Assembly (NCBI GenBank): GCA_026785985.1
Contig: JAJAYX010000501.1
Span: 1-11,238 of the forward strand
Direction: 5' to 3'
Length of the DNA: 11,238 bases
Source of the DNA: Rudanella sp.
Lineage (GTDB): Bacteria > Bacteroidota > Bacteroidia > Cytophagales > Spirosomataceae
Both the position numbers and the translations under genes were made by a program. A model generated the notes under the pieces. The model did not search any database. It worked only from the letters and a program-made list of their open reading frames with translations, and had not been told where the DNA came from. Shown here in pieces: positions 271 through 11,238 of this stretch (positions are counted from its first letter, which is position 1; each line of letters opens with the position of its first letter).

Positions 271-1582
271 TTAGATGGTGTTTCCATTGCGTTTGTTTTT
301 CCGGGGGAAAGTTTTGCGATAGGCCCCACGGGTTGCTCCATCGGCGGCAGCAACTGCCCCCGCCCCGGAACCGACGACTGCCCCGACGATGCCTCCTGCT
401 ACGCCTTTGACTCCCCGGCTAAGGACGCTTCCGCCCGACGAAGCCCCGGCCTGTGCGCCCCGCGCTACCCCACCCGCGACGTGCGCGGCCATTGTGAACG
501 GGGCCTGAGCCGCACCAGCCGCCATGTTACCCCCCAGCCGCGCTACGTTGGTGATTCCTCCACCAACCCGGTTCGCTACCGAATAACCCGCTGCTTTGAG
601 GGGCCTGGCCACCGGAGCCGATACTGTCCCTGCACCTGACTTAGCCAGGCTGGTCGCCCCCTGTACCATTGCCCCGACACCGCCCACCGTGACGAGCATA
701 TTGGTCATTGACGGAACCTGACAGTACCCAATCAGGCACATGACCAGAATACCGATGAAGGCCAGGCCCATGTACTCGGGCGTATGTGCTTCGGCACCCC
801 CGGCATTACCCAGCACAATGGTTTTTGGGTCGTAATAGCTGAGTTATTTGAGCGTGACCTTGAAGGCGATAGACGAGTAAACAGCCGCGACGGTGGGCAG
901 CAGGGTGTAGTTGATGTACTTACCAAACCACTCGGCAATGTTGTTGGTCATGCCGGGAAACACGGCCAGCGCGATGGCGATAGGTGCCCCCATGCGTAAC
1001 ACCAGCCGGTACGTAAAGGAGATCAGGAACAAAATGCACTCGGCCAGTTGCATCAGGGCCAGCAGGATGTCTTGGGTGTAGGAGAGCAATTCGTACTTGA
1101 ACTTCTCCGAGTACTCCGCAAAACTCAGTTTCAGGCTCGACCCGAACGCATCGGGCCGGGCCGCCGGAGCGGTCAAAGGTGGGGTCAACCTGCCGGAATA
1201 GTTCGGGGTGTTCGCCAATTTCCTGCCACTTGGCATCGACGGTTTGCTGGAGCAGTTTGGTCTGTTCGGCGATTTTCTCGTACAGCGTTCCGTTCTGCCG
1301 CTCAACGGCGGTGCGGATGCTTTCGCCCAACTTGTCGATCCCATTACAAATGCGGGGCGACAGGCCAATCAACACCATCAACATGAATGGGCGCAGGTAG
1401 GGGAAGAAGTCGATTGACTCCGAACGCATGACCTGGGGAATCAGCCGGGAGAAAATATAGACTAATGCCCCGATACCCGCCACCGCGCGGATTTTAGACT
1501 CGATCAGGGCGGTAATGTCCATCGTCGAGGCTGTCATATCGGCGTAGAGACCGAGCAGGGTTTTGTAAGCGTCAAAAAGCAT
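271..1582 (-). CDS. traJ: TraJ-like conjugation membrane protein, interrupted by a 16-nt element and an in-frame TAA
   Basis: This resembles TraJ of Bacteroidetes conjugative elements, a multi-pass inner-membrane protein of the mating apparatus. The start MLFDAYKTLLGLYADM is followed by a membrane segment near residue 35 and a charged, coiled-coil-like stretch (RQNGTLYEKIAEQ). Further membrane segments follow (ILLALMQLAECILFLISF; APIAIALAVF), then a late hydrophobic pair and a long Ala/Gly-rich tail ending in basic residues. The 16-nt element at 1156-1171 lies between codons 137 and 138 (VDPTFD-PDAFGSS). Removing it gives 1296 nt, 432 codons including the stop. One further defect remains: codon 241 is TAA (844-846), with the same frame continuing as LSYYDPKT into the C-terminal part. 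A CAA-to-TAA change would explain it. The C-terminal part could be re-initiated, for example at the GTG at 814-816. The 5' gap to traI is 58 nt. Confidence 0.75.
844..846 (-). other. In-frame TAA inside traJ
   Basis: The codon after KVTLK reads TAA. The same frame continues open for 190 more codons and encodes hydrophobic segments expected of TraJ (GLAFIGILVMCLIGYC). This is the only non-element defect I found in the conjugation operon. It may be a nonsense mutation (a single C-to-T change from CAA), a sequence error, a recoded stop, or a real split of the gene into two products. Confidence 0.8.
1156..1171 (-). repeat. 16-nt hairpin element, copy A (in traJ)
   Basis: In coding orientation this is CGCTCCGGCGGCCCGG, flanked by GAC and CCC. 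It has the same orientation as the gene. It shifts traJ by +1 between codons 137 and 138; removing 16 nt joins TTTGAC to CCCGAT and restores the frame. Confidence 0.9.
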
Positions 1583-1640
1583 ACGTTTGAGCCGGATTTG
1601 GGCGTGAGAATTGGTTGGTACAGGGTCAGTGAATCAGGCG

Positions 1641-2677
1641 TTAACCGCCACTGCTACTCATTTTGTCCTGGCATTCCCGTTGTATAGCGGCTCGTTTGTC
1701 AGCTGCAATTTGACGGCCCCGGATACGAATCAGAATCTCGAACTCGGCATCCGAAATAATATGTCCGTCGTACGGGTCGATATAGCCGTTGGGTTTGCCT
1801 TTTTTGTCGGGGTCATAATAGGGAGGATAGAGGGCCTTCAACTCCTGATAGGCAAACTGTTCGCCCTGTAAATCAGCGATTTGCAGCTTGTCCTGGCACT
1901 CCTGCATCAGGGCTGTTTTGCGGTCGAGTTCGGCCTGTTTCTGCCGTTGCTGCTGGGCAATGGTTTCTTCGTCCAGTGCCGATTTGCTGCGGTCTGTGTA
2001 ATCATCGTCGTACCCTTTTTCACCCAGCATGAACTGCACTTCCCCATAATTGCCCTGCTTCGTCAGCGTGGGTTCGGCCATAGCATACAGGCGGCTGCCG
2101 GGCCGCCGGAGCGGTCATCTGCCAGTCCTTTTGCGACCGAATCCGGCGCAGCGACAGCGACCGCACCTTGTAATAGTAGTTGTTGACCAGCCCCTGAAAC
2201 TTTTTGGCACTCTCGTAGGCCCGGAATATCCATTCGATACGCCCCTGATCGTTCATCTCGAACATATTTTGCGAGGTGCCCTGCCGCATATCTTTCAGGA
2301 TATCGTTGGCATGGCCACCCATCGCGCTCAGGTCGTCGGCAATGAGTGAGTACTCGGCCGGGTATATGTGGCCGTCTTTGCTAATCACCGTTGAGATGCT
2401 TTGCAGGGTGCGGCCGGGCCGCCGGAGCGGTCGTTTGCTGCACCGTCTGAATCAACTGCTGCCCCCGGTGATAGCTCTGCACGGCTCCTTTCACCTTCTT
2501 TAGCTTCTCGATGGCATCGACCATCGTTTTAAAAGTCGGTTTCTGAATCAGCGACATCAAGTTTGATACCGCCGTATGGATGGGATCGGAGACCACAAAC
2601 TGCGCGTTCAGGGCAGTTGTCACCAGCAACAGGCACAGAAGCAGCCCTGCCACCCGGAAAACTCGGTTGGTTTGCAT
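1641..2677 (-). CDS. traI: TraI-like (DUF4141) conjugation protein, interrupted by two 16-nt elements
   Basis: A secreted or periplasmic protein in the position held by TraI/DUF4141 in Bacteroidetes tra operons, between traG and traJ. The N-terminus is a clear signal peptide (MQTNRVFRVAGLLLCLLLV... to about ALNAQ), which is why I start at 2677 rather than further upstream. Then comes FVVSDPIHTAV, similar to the family's opening after signal cleavage. The middle is helical and charged, and the C-terminal half is a Gln/Lys/Glu-rich coiled-coil-like region ending QDKMSSSGG. Two elements (2414-2429 in codon 83, 2098-2113 in codon 183) break the frame twice. Removing 32 nt gives 1005 nt, 334 residues, as one open frame (TVQQTTRTLQS and WQMTSRLYAM across the joins). 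The gap from traG is 31 nt. The family call rests on position, signal peptide and length. Confidence 0.7.
2098..2113 (-). repeat. 16-nt hairpin element, copy B (in traI)
   Basis: CGCTCCGGCGGCCCGG in coding orientation, flanked by GAC and CAG. It sits inside codon 183 (after its second base). Removal rebuilds ACC and the join QMTSRLYAM. Confidence 0.9.
2414..2429 (-). repeat. 16-nt hairpin element, copy C (in traI)
   Basis: CGCTCCGGCGGCCCGG in coding orientation, flanked by GAC and CCG. It sits inside codon 83 (after its second base). Removal gives the join VQQTTRTLQSIS and leads into the second part of the gene. Confidence 0.9.
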
Positions 2678-2708
2678 ACGTTTTTGGGATTGAAATTGGG
2701 TTGAGAGA

Positions 2709-5332
2709 CTATCGTTTTGGGTACAACATTGGTACGCCCTGTGCATTGACGGGCAGGTATCCCCCGGCCCGTTCGCCCCTTGACCAGCCCTTCACCGCCG
2801 ACTCTAAATCATTGCCGTAATGAGTGGTGGCCAGATCGTTGATCTCCTCCACTTCCGACCGCTCGGTGGTGAAGGTGCCGTAAGCCATGCGACTTACCTC
2901 CACCCCATAAACCTTGCAGTAATCACCGATCAAGAGGGCCAAATCATTGTAGGGCGGGCGGTTGGGGTCTTTTCCTTTGTTGATACTCAGGATGATGTTG
3001 GCTTGTTTCTCGGACAGCGAAAGGGTTTGCATAACCTCGGCAAATCGCTTCTCGTAGTTGTGCTGGTCGAGCAGAAACTTGATCGGGGAGTTATTGATAA
3101 TGGCATCCTTCACAATCGCATTCCCCACCAGATCATCGATCTCCTGCGTCACTACCCCCAGCGAACCGAAGTGTTTCCGCACGGTTTTGCTGCCGCACGG
3201 GCGGCCCCGACCATTTCAGAAACTGCGCGAAGTTCTCCTTAGCCAGTGCTTTCCAGGCTTCCTCGATGATGAGCATTTTCAGTACACCCTTCACACTGAA
3301 AAGTTTACGCACGTAGGTGTTCATAATCATGATGCCGGGCCGCCGGTGCGGTCGTGATGGGAAACAAAACCGGGTGATCTTTGATGTTGTCTAATTCGTA
3401 GACCACAAAAGGCAATTCCATGAGGTCAATGTTTCGGCGCGAATTGAGCAGGTAGCCGTACTGATTATCCGCGTAAAAAGGCCGCAATACGTAGAGGAAG
3501 TTGTTCAGGTCAAACTCCTTTTCCGACCCCATGTTCCGGGTGAAAATGGCCGGATAGGTATCCCGCGTGAACTCGTAAAAACTGTCGAAGCAGGTAAACA
3601 GATCGTCGCCCGATTCCCACGCCCGGCGCATGGCTCCGTAGTACTCATGCACAATGTTGGCGATGGTCACTTCCTCAGCTTTCGTGGCGGGTTCACCGTC
3701 TTTCTTCCAAAGTGCCATCAGCAGGTTGGCCAGCGCGTCTTTCGTTTCCTCATCGGGGTCAAGATCGCGGCTGTAAAACGGCGGGGCCGCCCGTGCGGTT
3801 GAACTCAATCGGATTATCCGGCTCATACCTGATATAACGCCCACCCATGAGCGCGCACAACCGCTTGTAGGAACCACCCACGTCCACCAAACTGACGTGA
3901 ATGCCGTGACTAAGCAGATAATACACCATGTTGTTGATGATGAACGATTTACCCGTTCCCGACGGCCCGACGACCATGAAATTCCGGTTGGCGATAAGTC
4001 CCCGTTCCATCGGCCCAAAAAACGGATCGACCATACAGGGTCTGCCGAATCGGTCGGTGAGTAGCAGCCCATTTTTGCAGAAGAAATCGTCCCGGTAATT
4101 GGTTTCGGTGTTCCAGAGGGCTGTCGCTTCTTCCAGAAAACAAGTGGCCAGATTGTCGGCCCCGATCTCGGCAATGTTGCCCGGAATACACGACCAATAC
4201 AGCGTTTCGGCATCGTATTGGGCCAGTTTCGGTTTAAAACCCAGCTTGGAAATAGCCGCAGCCGTCTGCGACCGGTAGGTATCGACCAGATCGGGGTCGC
4301 GGTGAAAAACCAGTACGTTGTAATGCGCCCGCACCACCCGGCGGTTCCGGTCTTTTACTTCCTCCATAAACGCATCCTTCGAGCGAATACTGACCGCTCC
4401 GGCGGCCCGGCTCGTTCTCCTTCGACCAGGCAGAAAAGGAGGTGTGCCGCTTCACTTCCTTCGTCAATTGGTTGGTCAGCGCGTCGCCATCCTCGATCAG
4501 CAGCACTTGATTGTAGATGTGGTTGAAGGGCAGGAGCATCCCCAGAGCCGAGCCAGTGGAAATGGGGAAATGGCTGCTATCGGTCGAGAATTGTTCCAGC
4601 CGGGCGGAGTTGTAGACCTCGTTTGGGAAGTCGGCTAACTCTGACAGGGCATAGGTGTACGTCTGCTGACCGGCCACCATCAGGCCATTAGTTAGGTCAA
4701 TGTCGTGCAGTGTGGGGTCATCCAGCGAAAGCGAAAAATATCGCTGGTACAATCCGGTCTGTTCGCCATTATCCAGTAATTCGGCTGATCCTAAGCGATT
4801 TAGCTTCAGTTTGCCGGAGTCCTGATAGATGGCCGCAAACTGATTCACCACATCCACAAACTCCGCCCAGGTGCGACTGTCCTGCATTTCTTTAGGCACC
4901 AAATGCCGTTTCAGCAGCGACGATTGCCCACTAGTCCGTTTCATGGGCGATGTCGCCGGGCGCGTTACGTACAGGTAGCACCGATGGCGTAAGTAGGGAC
5001 GATCCGCAAAATGACGCTCATTTTCCCACACTAAACTGTTCGCATTTCGAAGGAAATCGCTCTCGAATGGTGGTACATATACGTCCGCTCCGGCGGCCCG
5101 GTTCGATGAATAGGTCTTGCTTATGTACCATGTAGCCAACCGGTAGCACCTTGGCGGCCCGGACTAGTACATCGTGCAGCGTATCGTACTCCCCATCGGA
5201 TACCGCGAAGATTTCCGGCGATTGCAGTTCAAAAGCCGCCGTGATGTCGGCGTTTTTCGAGACGATACAACCCGTTGTCTCGTCGATACAAAGAATGGGC
5301 AGCAGGTCTTTTAGAGTTTTACTTCGTTTCAT
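2709..5332 (-). CDS. traG: TraG-family conjugation ATPase (VirB4-like), interrupted by five 16-nt elements
   Basis: This is the VirB4-like ATPase that powers assembly of the Bacteroidetes conjugation machine at the inner membrane. With five 16-nt elements removed, the 2624 nt become 2544 nt, one open frame of 847 residues, the usual TraG size. Family motifs in order are the VHKQD motif near residue 70, RAHYNVL, Walker A GPSGTGKS at about 445-452 (3945-3968), FNPFY at about 500, the stretch LDNIKDHPVLFP, Walker B LIIEEAW at about 666-672, KTVRK, and VVTQEIDD. The elements lie between codons 77/78, 302/303 and 501/502, and inside codons 645 and 687. Across each junction the restored protein matches the family in spacing: FIE-DVYVP, FN-PFY, FPITT-IMIM, LKWCSKTVRK. 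The start overlaps the DUF4133 gene by ATGA. Read without removal, translation stops after about 104 residues. Confidence 0.92.
3194..3209 (+). repeat. 16-nt hairpin element, copy E (in traG, reverse to the gene)
   Basis: CGCACGGGCGGCCCCG on the plus strand, antisense to traG, flanked by TGC and ACC. The stem variant is CGGG/CCCG. Removal restores LKWCSKTVRKHFG, which has the same spacing as the family's KYLFKTVRKFFG. It lies inside codon 687, after its first base. It is the only copy whose 3' flank begins with A. Confidence 0.9.
3335..3350 (-). repeat. 16-nt hairpin element, copy D (in traG)
   Basis: CGCACCGGCGGCCCGG in coding orientation, flanked by GAC and CAT. It lies inside codon 645. 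Removal restores FPITTIMIMNTY, with the spacing of the family motif FPVVTIIIMETF just before Walker B. Confidence 0.92.
3782..3797 (-). repeat. 16-nt hairpin element, copy I (in traG)
   Basis: CGCACGGGCGGCCCCG in coding orientation, flanked by AAC and CCG, with stem variant CGGG/CCCG. Removal between codons 501 and 502 recreates FNPFY, a conserved TraG motif. This copy fixes the excised length at 16 nt to within a one-base shift. Confidence 0.93.
4395..4410 (+). repeat. 16-nt hairpin element, copy H (in traG, reverse to the gene)
   Basis: CGCTCCGGCGGCCCGG on the plus strand, antisense to traG, flanked by GAC and CTC. Removal between codons 302 and 303 joins KENE to VSIRSKDAF and opens the frame into the ATPase domain. 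Confidence 0.92.
5086..5101 (+). repeat. 16-nt hairpin element, copy J (in traG, reverse to the gene)
   Basis: CGCTCCGGCGGCCCGG on the plus strand, antisense to traG, flanked by GTC and TTC. Removal between codons 77 and 78 gives KQDLFIEDVYVPPF, the same spacing as the family's KQDWFIEENYRPD. Confidence 0.92.
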
Positions 5333-5699
5333 CGGAGTTTATAGGGCGTAGTTGGCCGAACGGGAATCAGCCGGTTGAAAGACTGGTACTGACACACAAA
5401 CTGGGGCTTTAGCTGATGCACTTTTTGCTTGACGGCACCCCACCGCCCGAAGCGGTTATTGCGGGTGTAGCACCACAGTAGTGTACTGCCTGACCCCAGG
5501 AAAAGCAGCAAGATGGCCACCAACACGGGTGCGCCCAGAATGTAGCCGAGCAGGGTGGCAAAGACCGAAGTAATCAGCCCACCAGCCGCGTAATAGAAGT
5601 AGAGACCTCGCAAACCCCGAAACTCGATCGCTCCGGCGACCCGGTTCGTTGTCGGCCCCCCGGAAAACAGGAAAGGATCGCTCCGGCGACCCGGTTCAT
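5329..5699 (-). CDS. TraF-like DUF4133 membrane protein, interrupted by two 16-nt elements
   Basis: A small inner-membrane protein that lies directly upstream of traG in Bacteroidetes tra operons and probably contributes to the mating channel (VirB3-like by position). Removing both elements leaves 339 nt, 112 residues. The restored N-terminus, MKSFPVFRGADNEIEFRGLR, matches the DUF4133 pattern of a short opening, a GxDxxxEFxGLxG motif and then two hydrophobic segments (AAGGLITSVFATLLGYILG; VLVAILLLFLGSG). The start ATG at 5697-5699 overlaps the upstream stop as ATGA, and the stop overlaps the traG start the same way, so translation is probably coupled. One element follows the fifth base of the gene, inside codon 2. 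Without removal no conventional start reaches the GLRG motif in frame; the first in-frame start lies after it. Confidence 0.85.
5629..5644 (+). repeat. 16-nt hairpin element, copy F (in the DUF4133 gene)
   Basis: CGCTCCGGCGACCCGG on the plus strand, antisense to the gene, flanked by GAT and TTC. It carries the R=A variant, matched by T instead of C just before the element (TCGC/GCGA stem). Removal joins codon 13 (GAA) to ATC GAG, giving NEIEFRGLRG. Confidence 0.92.
5679..5694 (+). repeat. 16-nt hairpin element, copy G (codon 2 of the DUF4133 gene)
   Basis: CGCTCCGGCGACCCGG on the plus strand, identical to copy F 50 bp away, including the GAT and TTC flanks. It follows ATGAA of the gene, so it splits codon 2 but leaves the upstream gene's TGA intact. 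Removal creates ATG AAA TCC. Confidence 0.92.
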
Positions 5700-6148
5700 A
5701 GCATTGCTGAAATTATTGAACTCATCAGGAACAGAAACGCCAATGAGCCAAACCACTTGAACATGAATTCATACAGGTCGTCGTCGCCCCGCCGAAACTT
5801 CTGGAAAATCCGAATCAGGCCGATGATGGCCACCACAATACCGAGAAGCAGGGCCGCCCGACTGCCTTCAACGGCCAACGACTGGGTGTACTGTTGGGCG
5901 AGGTAGTCGCTCCCGCCAAACGACGAGGAGAAGGCCCCGCTCAGAATGAAGCGATCTACCAGAAACACAACCCCGCCACAGAAAGCAAGGCTGGTTAGCC
6001 ACAATACGAGCGGCCCTTCAACGTCCTCACCCCGGTTCCACTGTTGATAGAGCCGGTAACCGGCTACCACGGCAGCGAACGCACATAGCCATAACCCAAT
6101 TGATTTTACCTGCCCGTAGGCCTGTAGTTCGTCGTACACCAGAATCAC
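5696..6148 (-). CDS. Membrane protein with two TraE/DUF4134-like modules
   Basis: A 150-residue protein with about four hydrophobic segments and no signal peptide cleavage site. It appears to hold two copies of the module seen in the neighbouring TraE-like proteins: a membrane segment, a short motif of the type YRLYQQWNRGED or IRIFQKFRRGDDD, then a second membrane segment (FCGGVVFLV; LAFLFLMSSIISAM). In the TraE/DUF4134 family the equivalent motif is like RIYxKxxxGDxDV. It overlaps the genes on both sides by ATGA. It contains no 16-nt element and its frame is intact. Its role is inferred to be in the conjugation channel or pilus, from its sequence module and its position in the operon; the exact family name is uncertain. 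Confidence 0.7.
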   Translation of the reverse strand: MILVYDELQAYGQVKSIGLWLCAFAAVVAGYRLYQQWNRGEDVEGPLVLWLTSLAFCGGVVFLVDRFILSGAFSSSFGGSDYLAQQYTQSLAVEGSRAALLLGIVVAIIGLIRIFQKFRRGDDDLYEFMFKWFGSLAFLFLMSSIISAML

Positions 6149-6694
6149 TTGGTCAGTTGGGTATGGGGGCGCAAAGAGTCGGAGGCTGAACGGTAATAGT
6201 TGCGAATCGAATCGACGCGGGCATCACCACCTGGCTGGTAGGGGGTAGCTCCCACCGCGTCCGTTGATGGATTGGCTATTTCGGAGTTGTCTTCTGCCCC
6301 GCGAAACAGGAGTTTATCGGTCCCGAAACGAGCCGCCGATACGGCGGGCATCCGGTAACTGACCCATCCCTGCAAAAACAGCGCGACCATGCCGACACCA
6401 ATGATGGCCGATACCAGCCGCCAGCTTTCAAGCGCAAACTCACCCGTGCCGGCCTGAACCCGTGCGTAGATTCGGAGACCGCCGATCAGGGCCGTAAGGC
6501 CGCAAACGGCCCAAACGAACTTCAGGAATGTAGGCATTCGGCCGCACCGGCGGCCCGGTCAGAATTGGATTGGTAAACTGCCCGTCGATACCGACCGACG
6601 TGGCTGGGTTCCCGTTGAGGTTGATGTCCTGGGCCGAGGCAATCAGGCTGAATAGACAGCAGCCCAGTAAAAGCAGCGTTTTGGAGCGAAACAT
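6145..6694 (-). CDS. TraE/DUF4134-like membrane protein with signal peptide, interrupted by a 16-nt element
   Basis: The start at 6694 gives a strong signal peptide (MFRSKTLLLLGCCLFSLIASAQ), and the mature part begins DINLNGNP. The element at 6543-6558 lies inside codon 46. Removing it joins TNPIL to SRMPTFLKFV and gives 177 residues in one frame. The rest has two hydrophobic segments around the loop RIYARVQAGTGE, similar to the RIYSKMQAGDQD loop of the gene upstream, so I read it as a paralogue of that gene. A long polar tail follows the second segment. The start lies 13 nt after the previous stop, and the stop overlaps the next gene by ATGA. An internal ATG just after the element could start a form without signal peptide if the element is not removed. 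Confidence 0.72.
6543..6558 (+). repeat. 16-nt hairpin element, copy K (in the TraE-like gene)
   Basis: CGCACCGGCGGCCCGG on the plus strand, antisense to the gene, flanked by GGC and TCA. Removal inside codon 46 fuses the signal-peptide part to the membrane part of the protein. Confidence 0.9.
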
Positions 6695-9070: not shown

Positions 9071-9410
9071 CGTATTCAAGTCGACAACGGCAGTGAATTT
9101 ATTTCGAAAGCGTTAGATCTTTGGGCCTATGATAACGGGGTGATCTTGGACTTTTCCTGGCCTGGGAAACCCACGGATAACCCGTTTATCGAGTCTTTTA
9201 ATGGAAGTTTTCGGCAGGGCCGCCTGTGCGGATGAGTGTTTAAACGCCCACTGGTTCTTATCGTTGGATGACGCCTGTGATAAGATTGAGTTATGGCGAC
9301 AGAAATATAACACGTTTCGACCTCACAGTTCACTGGGCGGATTGACCCCAGATGAGGTCGGAATTGAAGGGAAGAAAAAGACAAATGAACGTCCGATCCT
9401 CAATCTTTGA
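9071..9410 (+). pseudogene. IS3-family transposase, C-terminal fragment, interrupted by a 16-nt element
   Basis: The last part of an IS3-family OrfB (DDE transposase). Residues read RIQVDNGSEF (second catalytic Asp), [18 protein letters not shown] (catalytic Glu in FIESFNG), then [15 protein letters not shown] and [17 protein letters not shown], all family signatures. The first Asp and the N-terminal half are missing; a TAA at 9068-9070 precedes the fragment in frame. The element at 9215-9230 shifts the frame between FR and DECLN. Removing 16 nt gives 107 residues in one frame. Because the gene is 5'-truncated it cannot make an active transposase, so this copy is a neutral test of the element's behaviour. 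Confidence 0.88.
9215..9230 (-). repeat. 16-nt hairpin element, copy M (in the IS3 remnant, reverse to the gene)
   Basis: CGCACAGGCGGCCCTG on the minus strand, antisense to the transposase fragment, flanked by ATC and CCG. It carries a third stem variant, CAGG/CCTG. Removal rebuilds FNGSFRDECLN, the standard IS3 sequence. Confidence 0.92.
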
Positions 9411-9507: not shown

Positions 9508-9948
9508 ATGATTAATATGAAACGAGTTGCATCACCCATTGGTCTGCTTCTTCAGGATGTACCGGGACATATCAATGATAGCGAAATCCTGAACTTCCTC
9601 TACACCAGAGAGGTCAACTGGCAGCATGTCAACGCCATTAAGACCCTGACCGATTTTAATGACGGTGTCATTTCCGACTGGCTTAACGTCAGTGTCAAAA
9701 CATTTCGCGAATACAAAAAGCCCCCAACTTCCCTCAAGGAAAATGTCAAAGAGCAGGTGTTGCTCCTTTTATCGCTGATCAAACACGGGATTGACGTATT
9801 CGGCTCGGTTAGTGAATTCGACCAGTGGCTAAATCGGAAAAACTTTTATTTCGACAACAAAATGCCCAATGACTACCTGAATACGGTGACTGGGGTCAAA
9901 TTTGTGGATGATCGGTTGACGGCCATGGAATACGGGGATAACGTGTAA
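9508..9948 (+). CDS. Xre/MbcA/ParS-type antitoxin (DUF2384)
   Basis: A 146-residue antitoxin for the RES toxin that follows 3 nt downstream. The N-terminal half has a helix-turn-helix-like stretch (GVISDWLNVSVKTFREYKK). The C-terminal half carries the DUF2384 pattern: a DVFGSVSEFDQWL helix, then MPNDYLNTVTGVKFVDDRLTAMEYG, in which the P..YL.T..G...V.D.L..ME.G spacing is typical. That domain covers the toxin active site in known pairs. It probably also represses the operon through the palindrome upstream. I start at the ATG at 9508; the ATG at 9517 is possible. Confidence 0.85.
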   Translation: MINMKRVASPIGLLLQDVPGHINDSEILNFLYTREVNWQHVNAIKTLTDFNDGVISDWLNVSVKTFREYKKPPTSLKENVKEQVLLLLSLIKHGIDVFGSVSEFDQWLNRKNFYFDNKMPNDYLNTVTGVKFVDDRLTAMEYGDNV

Positions 9949-9951
9949 GCC

Positions 9952-10404
9952 ATGGAAGTGTTCCGAATCAGTAAGGAGGTCCATGCGACTTCGTTAAGCG
10001 CATCAGGTAGTGCCAATCGGTGGAACACCAAAGGCCAGCAGGTCCTTTACACTGGCTCATCACGGTCCCTGTCATCCCTGGAATTGGTAGTTCACCGGGG
10101 GGCCATCCAACCGAACGTCGGCTACGAAGTGATGGTGATCTCAATCGCGGATGATGACTATCTAATCAAACAAGTCCAGCGCAGCGATCTTCCCCCCAAC
10201 TGGCGAAGCCTGGCGGGTTATCCTAGCTTGAAGGGGATTGGATCAGCCTGGTACAACCGCCAGGAAAGCCTGGTGCTCAAAGTGCCTTCGGCCATCATCG
10301 TTTACGAGTATAACTACATCATCAACACGGAGCACCCTGATTTCGGTAGTAAAGTACAGTTAGTGCGGACCGAAGATTACTTTTGGGATTCAAGGCTTTT
10401 ATGA
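9952..10404 (+). CDS. RES-domain toxin
   Basis: A 150-residue RES-family toxin; characterised members consume NAD+ or ADP-ribosylate targets. The start MEVFRISKEVHAT with its early Arg is followed by GSANRWNTKGQQVLYTGSS, the RWN..G..V.Y pattern of the family. SLSSLELVVHRG carries the conserved Glu. The motif VPSAIIVYEYNYIINTEHPDF contains the conserved Ser and the N..IN..HP ending. These give the Arg, Glu and Ser of the RES name. The length matches compact RES toxins. It pairs with the antitoxin 3 nt upstream, so the two form one operon. It could serve plasmid maintenance or phage defence, the latter because of the BREX genes next door. Confidence 0.88.
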   Translation: MEVFRISKEVHATSLSASGSANRWNTKGQQVLYTGSSRSLSSLELVVHRGAIQPNVGYEVMVISIADDDYLIKQVQRSDLPPNWRSLAGYPSLKGIGSAWYNRQESLVLKVPSAIIVYEYNYIINTEHPDFGSKVQLVRTEDYFWDSRLL

Positions 10405-10468: not shown

Positions 10469-10951
10469 ATGAACCTAACCAATGACCTATTGCTTACACG
10501 CCTGGCTGTATTATCGCTGAGCAGTATAGCTGGCTGGCTACCCAGCGTCTCCACAGACGAAGTGGAGATGCTGGCCTACGTTCTACCCAAAACCGCACCA
10601 GTAGCGACGATACAGCTGGGTGTCAACATAGCCTGCCACAAACACGATCAGGCGGTAGGAGATGGGAAATACCACCTGTTTCGATTAGCCATTCCGCTGG
10701 AAGAACGAATTAGTCGAGCGTTAAATGAACACCAGCGAAGCGGTAACCTTCCTAACGCAACGGTTGATCAAAGCGTCGCTTACCTGACTAAACTGACTGA
10801 GGGGGTAGCGATTGATCCACAGAAAGGCCCGGTGCAGGCTGGCTTATATACTGAGTTGGCCCATAACCCGATGGATATGCTAACTTGCCTCGCTAAACAT
10901 TACCTGATCGCTTACCAAAATGGCTATCAGACTTTTCCTTACTTTTCATGA
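10469..10951 (+). CDS. brxE: BrxE-like protein of a BREX defence system
   Basis: A 160-residue protein resembling BrxE, the first gene of type 6 BREX loci. The pattern LLLTRLAVLSL...GW, then VLPKTAPVATIQLGVNIACHKHD, GDGKYHLFRLAIPLEERI and a GPVQAG motif near the end fits what I recall of that family. I could not run a profile search. I start at the ATG at 10469; the upstream TTG lies inside the hairpin. The stop overlaps the next gene by ATGA, and that gene looks like brxA, giving the brxE-brxA order of type 6 loci. The function of BrxE is not known in detail. Confidence 0.55.
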   Translation: MNLTNDLLLTRLAVLSLSSIAGWLPSVSTDEVEMLAYVLPKTAPVATIQLGVNIACHKHDQAVGDGKYHLFRLAIPLEERISRALNEHQRSGNLPNATVDQSVAYLTKLTEGVAIDPQKGPVQAGLYTELAHNPMDMLTCLAKHYLIAYQNGYQTFPYFS

Positions 10952-11238
10952 GTGTCGTTTATAATTCTGACTTGCTAAAAGCAACTGGCTTAGTGCAGGA
11001 AACACTGGTATTACTGGAAGCTTATCAGCCTGGGCAGACCAAAGAGGAATTTGGTCGGTACGTCAAAGAGGCCGATTTGCTGGGTAAAGCAACCCAGAAT
11101 CGCGTTGATGATATCCTCAGGTCCAGCTTTTTTCGGCGTTACGTAGCAACTGGTACTAATACCGTAACAGCCCTGAAGCTTTTGCAAACGAATCATGCCG
11201 GGCTTGAGGTGCTGAATCAGCTTCTTTTAAGCTTTACC
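10948..11238 (+). CDS. brxA: BrxA-like (DUF1819) protein, 5' part, cut by the window end
   Basis: An open frame of 97 codons running off the right edge, starting with an ATG that overlaps the preceding stop. The N-terminus, YNSDLLKATGLVQETLVLLEAY, and the later ADLLGKATQNRVDDILRSSF and FRRYV match the DUF1819/BrxA pattern of a helical N-terminus with an N/D-L-L-x-K-x-x-x-x-R motif. BrxA is a small DNA-binding core component of BREX phage exclusion. The full protein should be about 200 residues, so about half is visible. Expected next genes are brxB and brxC. Confidence 0.65.
   Translation, partial: MSVVYNSDLLKATGLVQETLVLLEAYQPGQTKEEFGRYVKEADLLGKATQNRVDDILRSSFFRRYVATGTNTVTALKLLQTNHAGLEVLNQLLLSFT

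Follow-up and report, generated by a model that had tools for sequence, protein, structure and literature searches.

A 16-nucleotide hairpin sequence, likely a mobile element, in conjugation genes of Rudanella and across its bacterial family

The stretch of DNA analysed here, referred to as the window, is the whole of contig JAJAYX010000501.1 of a Rudanella genome (11,238 nucleotides, nt), in which five adjacent conjugation genes are interrupted by eleven copies of the 16-nt sequence CGCWCNGGCGRCCCNG. We interpret this sequence as a tiny mobile element, a 16-base hairpin that is transferred precisely as a single strand and that has here likely switched off the five genes; we would give this interpretation about two chances in three. 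It draws on the copies themselves, on empty sites without duplicated bases in relatives, on the dispersed family to which the copies belong, on two palindromes with compensatory changes and on a match between base 11 of the element and the adjoining host base. The element is real and widespread; it is likely mobile, likely ranks with the smallest mobile DNA elements on record, and is new as a variant.

Inserts and empty sites in the conjugation operon

The source genome is fragmentary (4.68 Mb in 891 contigs, 71.7% complete), and the window is its contig C501. Twelve exact copies of CGCWCNGGCGRCCCNG are present in the window. Eleven lie within 1156–6558, bearing out the initial annotation, which had placed eleven copies in five conjugation genes; the twelfth, unlisted there, is at 9215–9230 on the minus strand, in a relic of an IS3-type transposase gene recognised by Pfam (rve_3). 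A thirteenth place, at 5849, matches CGCWCNGGCGRCCCNG with two mismatches. In 200 shuffles of the window, with two mismatches allowed, the mean number of matches was 0.38 and the maximum 3.

The five genes are on the minus strand. The gene named traJ (271–1582) contains one insert, at 1156–1171 on the minus strand, and traI (1641–2677) two, at 2098–2113 and 2414–2429, both minus. Five interrupt traG, which encodes the TraG P-loop ATPase (2709–5332; Pfam and alignment), at 3194–3209 (plus), 3335–3350 (minus), 3782–3797 (minus), 4395–4410 (plus) and 5086–5101 (plus). The DUF4133 gene (5329–5699; Pfam and alignment) has two, at 5629–5644 and 5679–5694, both plus, each with the loop CGAC and a preceding T, and the TraE-like gene (6145–6694; alignment), which adjoins two open reading frames (ORFs) of the DUF4134 family, has one at 6543–6558 (plus). 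Relative to the genes, five copies are therefore sense and six antisense, and all eleven are exact matches with empty sites in relatives. The names traI and traJ come from the initial annotation; a Pfam scan of the fragments of these two genes named neither. Rfam, at its gathering thresholds, gave no match anywhere in the window.

When the flanks of the inserts are abutted, the Spirosoma lacussanchae homologues of traG, traI, traJ, the DUF4133 gene and the TraE-like gene (883, 334, 431, 112 and 177 amino acids, respectively) each align in one frame; without abutting they align as 6, 3, 2, 1 and 2 pieces. The proposal that removal of 16 nt per copy restores a single frame of definite length to each gene fits these alignments. 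One other lesion was seen besides the inserts, a TAA in traJ at 844–846 on the minus strand, which had also been reported at the outset.

Nine loci with the same operon, from Rudanella, Fibrella (two), Fibrivirga, Spirosoma (two) and Runella (three), contain no exact copy of CGCWCNGGCGRCCCNG. Comparison of the 11 copies with six relatives amounts to 66 comparisons, 65 of them possible (one is missing at 6543), and the gap is 0 in 59. The other six read −16, every one at the pair 5629/5679 of the DUF4133 gene, whose members are separated by 50 nt, and we put these readings down to the presence of the neighbouring insert within the compared flank. Insert-free alleles, for which a search had been suggested, are thus found in six relatives, which hold the genes without the 16 bases. 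For the copy at 9215, no counterpart was found in these six, so that it has no empty-site comparison. No target bases are duplicated at the insertion points of the operon, and copies of an IS110 element with and without an insert likewise differ by a clean 16-nt gap; the tree of the six IS110 copies is unresolved, and inheritance of their shared insert is not readable from it. The base before the insertion point belongs to the target, because it is already present in insert-free relatives, as in GAC/CAG (the slash marking the insertion point), found in 6/6 at 2098.

An unbroken traG frame of 864 codons, with 92% identity over the query, is present in two genomes of the same genus (G001 and G002). 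No second close traG was found in the source genome, where the broken gene is the only close one and another stands at 40% identity. The ratio of nonsynonymous to synonymous substitution rates (dN/dS) of the operon against its relatives is 0.02–0.10 for most gene pairs and 0.10–0.26 for the least conserved stretch, from which we conclude that the operon was under selection until lately.

A dispersed family with two overlapping palindromes

A search of the whole genome and of related genomes, which the initial annotation had recommended, yielded 45 exact copies of CGCWCNGGCGRCCCNG in the source genome, 22 on one strand and 23 on the other (reversed control, 0), and matches in 104 of 150 genomes of the bacterial family (reversed control, 0–3 per genome). 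Among the genomes assembled as a single contig, three carry 75, 36 and 21 copies. It might be argued that the inserts are a product of sequencing or assembly, given the fragmentary state of the source genome and the position of 4 of its 45 copies (on contigs C263, C395, C676 and C225) at most 26 nt from a contig end. The copies in single-contig genomes and in 104 family genomes, together with their compensatory changes, nevertheless refute an artefact for the family, and we give this explanation a negligible chance. The copies near contig ends might mean that alleles with and without the insert coexisted in the population that was sampled. Across the family, the element also accounts for frame shifts in plasmid and transposase genes that one might otherwise put down to sequencing errors.

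Copies occur between genes and inside transposase and tRNA genes; some form inverted pairs, some sit within short tandem repeats (locus L147) and some are themselves repeated in tandem (L151). The inverted pairs, 33–140 nt apart, occur in several genomes; many copies, untallied, are single. In one genome (G003), three tRNA or tRNA-like genes carry the element next to the T-arm: those for tRNA-Gln and tRNA-Pro(cgg), and a third that by eye resembles a tRNA-Tyr gene (L134:396-411, L134:870-885 and L128:226-241). Its position is identical in all three, immediately 5' of the T-arm TTCGA, and ARAGORN still calls the tRNA-Gln and the tRNA-Pro(cgg). At four loci of the same genome (L079, L131, L136 and L146) two copies face each other at a distance of 79 nt as an inverted pair. 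Each of them is enclosed by a ATTCCTCG...CGGAATGAC palindrome, and the whole looks like a composite unit of the REPIN type. One transposase gene of the source genome (ISAs1-like by eye) is present in three diverged copies (L307, L308 and L309); all three have a common insert site, two of them have a second site in common, and the 16-mers are identical. Fourteen viral contigs from IMG/VR (L386-L399) contain the exact 17-mer CCGCTCCGGCGGCCCGG, some possibly by chance in GC-rich DNA.

Pairing within the element was analysed in two sets. In the first, of 207 sites, two positions of the finder pattern were loosened, contexts with equal 10+10 flanks were joined, and copies less than 30 nt from a locus end or directly abutting another copy were omitted; the sampling of loci for this set was not random, as some had been chosen for their clusters of copies. 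Positions 6 and 15 are complementary at 197/207 of these sites, and base 11 complements the host base preceding the insert at 188/207. Where the loop base is G, the insert is preceded by C in 160/166 cases, and where it is A, by T in 28/39 (Fisher p about 1e-22); the target consensus is A[CT]/Y. In the second set, of 339 contexts, only nine anchor bases were fixed and contexts with equal 6+6 flanks were joined. Complementarity here is 92% at 5:16 (shuffle 63%), 93% at 6:15 (43%) and 87% at −1:11 (61%), each value exceeding all 500 shuffles, and base 5 tends to be identical to base 12 (85% versus 60% in shuffles). Two control patterns (125 and 14 contexts) gave no pairing at these three pairs of positions; the first, with 125 contexts, has an excess at other pairs, 4:11, 4:12 and 12:16.

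The element thus comprises two overlapping palindromes, YCGC....GCGR, in which Y is the host base, and abGG....CCb'a', both supported by compensatory changes. Their order is that of an H-type pseudoknot, and the element may fold in that way.

We propose that the element moves by HUH-type single-strand transposition, because insertion is precise and without duplication, the unit is a hairpin and the target base is matched by an internal base. The marks of HUH transposition in IS200/IS605 elements and TnpAREP are, according to PMC8266576, a hairpin, the lack of a duplication and pairing of the target with guide bases. The moving form would be the folded single strand, base 11 would act like the guide base of IS200/IS605 and repetitive extragenic palindromic (REP) systems, and an HUH-type enzyme acting in trans would move the element. 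In the operon, the frame shifts would abolish the conjugation proteins; it may have lost selection, or taken one insert first, and then gained further copies faster than ordinary mutations.

Interrupted genes and the inserts of an IS3 family

The inserts generally avoid genes. In a sample of 60 sites, taken from ten genomes in list order and compared with ORFs of at least 120 codons, 12 lie within ORFs (5/30 and 7/30), as against 353/504 and 419/502 random points from the same loci (70–83%). This sample retains the site at L085, where one stem base of the 16-mer is unpaired and the surrounding long ORF is dnaK-like by eye; it is probably a chance match. In a larger tally of 221 sites, in which identical contexts were joined and the two DUF4133 copies and that at 9215, being below threshold, were counted as 'other', 57 sites break an ORF and the remaining 164 break no long ORF. 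Outside the window, 40 fragments of broken ORFs were obtained, and 30 of these were scanned with Pfam. Eighteen matched a transposase, integrase, resolvase or a helix-turn-helix (HTH) domain of insertion sequence (IS) type, two of these through HTH_21 alone and one (L021) below the Pfam cut-off; six had no match, and six belonged to other families, namely UPF0236, a helicase domain, DUF1016/YhcG, DJ-1/PfpI, an acetyltransferase and a sodium symporter. In the last three the insert is only 28–41 codons from an ORF end.

The insert seems to be harmful in working genes and to persist in dispensable ones, so that inactivation is the likeliest fate of the conjugation operon, and its five genes are most likely dead. 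Plain inactivation is the best reading of the operon because genes are avoided elsewhere and 18 of 30 broken ORFs are transposase- or recombinase-like. The initial annotation had left two readings side by side: a burst of insertions that killed the operon, and removal or skipping of the inserts by the cell. The former is better supported, by the dispersed family, the empty sites, the avoidance of genes elsewhere and the mostly transposase-type character of the named matches. As for the latter, translational skipping fits poorly because the inserts occur in both orientations, while removal from DNA or RNA is retained because of the shared and well-kept inserts of an IS3 family described below. 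Translational bypassing elements, like the Magnusiomyces byps or the one in gene 60 of phage T4, would explain why hairpin inserts sit in genes whose frame is whole without them; however, the 57 genic copies are 25 sense and 32 antisense, 164 of the 221 sites break no long ORF and some copies are in tRNA genes, and we consider bypassing highly improbable.

Several observations weigh against a mobile element that inactivates genes. Copies that break ORFs make up 29/45 in the source genome and 28/176 elsewhere, a difference that is unexplained. The tra genes have a single other lesion beside eleven inserts, and insertion must therefore be very fast. No linked Y1 transposase emerged: among 49 Y1 loci two hold a copy, one of them inside the gene itself. 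Nor was a link to REP-associated tyrosine transposases (RAYTs) found, since two RAYT groups (at E 1e-15, one present in 35 and the other in 71 of the 150 genomes) do not track copy number, and a genome with 128 copies (G137) is absent from both. There is no preference for hairpin-loop targets, either among 203 sites compared with 1015 controls or in the window (4 sites compared with 20 controls), and the GC skew in 20 samples of genome G146 is too weak to place the origin and terminus for a lagging-strand comparison.

To these must be added the inserts in the IS3 family, which were compared in one genus (g4) using 21 copies from 12 genomes, among them the insert-free copy L349 as reference. 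Loci of the family are L238-L240, L322, L327 and L349-L365. Sixteen of the 21 copies contain 64 inserts (14–20 nt, all but one 14–16), up to seven in a copy, yet these occupy only 15 sites, one recurring site being in the HSDRG motif. Independent placement over 165 eligible junctions gave 53.6 sites on average and a minimum of 45 in 5000 runs. Two copies, L240 and L358, have five frame-shifting inserts each and zero stops or other frame-shifting indels. These results suggest that inserts can persist in otherwise intact genes.

Two views of the IS3 inserts can be taken: they are of long standing, retained and harmless enough to imply some form of removal, or insertion has recurred at the same points. 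On the first view the inserts would be intron-like or reversible, removed precisely from DNA or RNA in some cells and leaving the genes functional at a low level. Beside the few sites and the intact copies, the conservation of the inserts favours this: those shared by L240 and L239 differ at 1/80 nt, while the third positions of orfB differ at 100/310. Values of dN/dS are 0.12 for L239/L238, which have six sites in common, and 0.05–0.08 for L240/L239, within a range of 0.05–0.15 for insert-sharing copies of one genome, as in an insert-free pair (0.09–0.13). A given site tends to have the same type of insert from one genome to the next, and at 751 and 821 the stems show compensatory changes. 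On the IS3 tree, which leaves 7/13 internal nodes open, most sites are gained and lost repeatedly (site 342, 5 copies, 5 changes), a patchy presence that would need repeated precise loss or gain, whereas some cluster (site 923, 7 copies, 2 changes), against intron-like behaviour. A pair of IS3 copies in genome G153, 99.5% identical over 617 nt and in different places, both have an insert at the same point, which accords with reversible inserts but is explained equally by movement in trans by insert-free copies. Gene conversion was considered as the source of the shared IS sites and set aside, as flank differences within a few bases of the insert leave only very short tracts.

Chance re-use of the same points is disfavoured because the target consensus is weak, and efficient removal because inserts avoid genes. 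Against intron-like inserts there is also the occurrence of both orientations, and a stop or other frame-shifting indel in 8/11 IS3 copies with at least four inserts versus 3/10 with 0–2, as if copies with inserts decay. Low-level or reversible removal would satisfy both the shared IS3 sites and the avoidance of genes. Overall, we regard intron-like or reversible inserts as an unlikely explanation. Slightly more doubtful is the strong form of the idea, in which inserts of 16 bases, able to form a pseudoknot, would be the smallest intron-like elements known: they would colonise bacterial genes at fixed inherited sites and be excised exactly, from DNA or RNA and in either orientation, so that genes with five or more would work. 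Copies of the IS3 family, some with as many as seven inserts, offer a ready system for asking about insert removal.

Elsewhere in the window, a likely toxin–antitoxin pair, consisting of an Xre/MbcA/ParS-type antitoxin gene and, after it, a RES-domain gene, lies at 9508–10404, and a BrxA-like gene (BREX defence) at 10948–11238 is cut off by the contig end.

Comparison with known systems

The initial annotation named no described bacterial system close to these inserts, and in this it overlooked the small dispersed repeats (SDRs) of cyanobacteria and the REP elements. Bypassing elements (the byps and T4 gene 60) reportedly share with our inserts the character of short, structured, frame-shifting sequences; the element differs in occurring in both orientations, outside genes and in tRNA genes.

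With IS200/IS605 elements it has in common the hairpin and insertion without duplication, and target pairing with guide bases is a feature of that family according to PMC8266576. It differs in being a single 16-nt unit with no Y1 gene of its own, and its matching base is in the loop and not 5' of the hairpin. The covariation of base 11 with the −1 base resembles such a guide, and the two may pair; it is a direct, testable clue to how so small a unit may find its target.

Alternatively, the 16-mers might be REP singlets in minimal form, with a RAYT (TnpAREP) as their transposase; this interpretation overlaps with the mobile element and would name its enzyme. REP elements and REPINs resemble our element as short hairpins with a conserved 5' tetranucleotide, in forming inverted doublets in some genomes and in having a pyrimidine beside the insertion point. 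The apparent specification of the target base by an internal base is consistent with this, and TnpAREP cleaves C/T on either side of the REP at a site dependent on the GTAG motif (PMC8266576). No constant GTAG or CGTC tag was seen beside the palindrome in the flanks inspected, however, and the corresponding place holds CGCN, which is fixed by the search pattern. Moreover, the element does not flank Y1 genes (2 of 49 loci hold a copy), the two RAYT groups are uncorrelated with it, and its singlets are inserted inside genes. In Pseudomonas, singlets are taken to be dead remnants of doublets, according to PMC3116915, but here singlets are the inserted unit, and a moving singlet would therefore be new for REPINs. 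Taken together, a REP-type origin is possible but improbable. A RAYT or IS200 gene as linked mobiliser was itself rejected, no link having been found at the Y1 loci or in the distribution of the RAYT groups.

A literature search of partial coverage found no description of this element. The nearest described class is that of the SDRs of Nostoc and its relatives, said to have been described by Elhai et al. in 2008 as structured units of 21–27 nt with compensatory changes. Like these repeats, the element is very small, dispersed and apparently mobile, has a secondary structure with compensatory changes, and is found in tandem with itself and within short tandem repeats. Unlike them, it measures 16 nt (14–16), outside that size range, belongs to another phylum, consists of two palindromes that overlap and take in a host base, and has entered eleven points of one operon without duplication. 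Cyanobacterial SDRs are also mentioned in PMC2884548. We conclude that the element resembles the cyanobacterial SDRs but is shorter, is inserted without target duplication and is likely mobile; if so, a mobile element of only 16 bases would equal or undercut the smallest on record.

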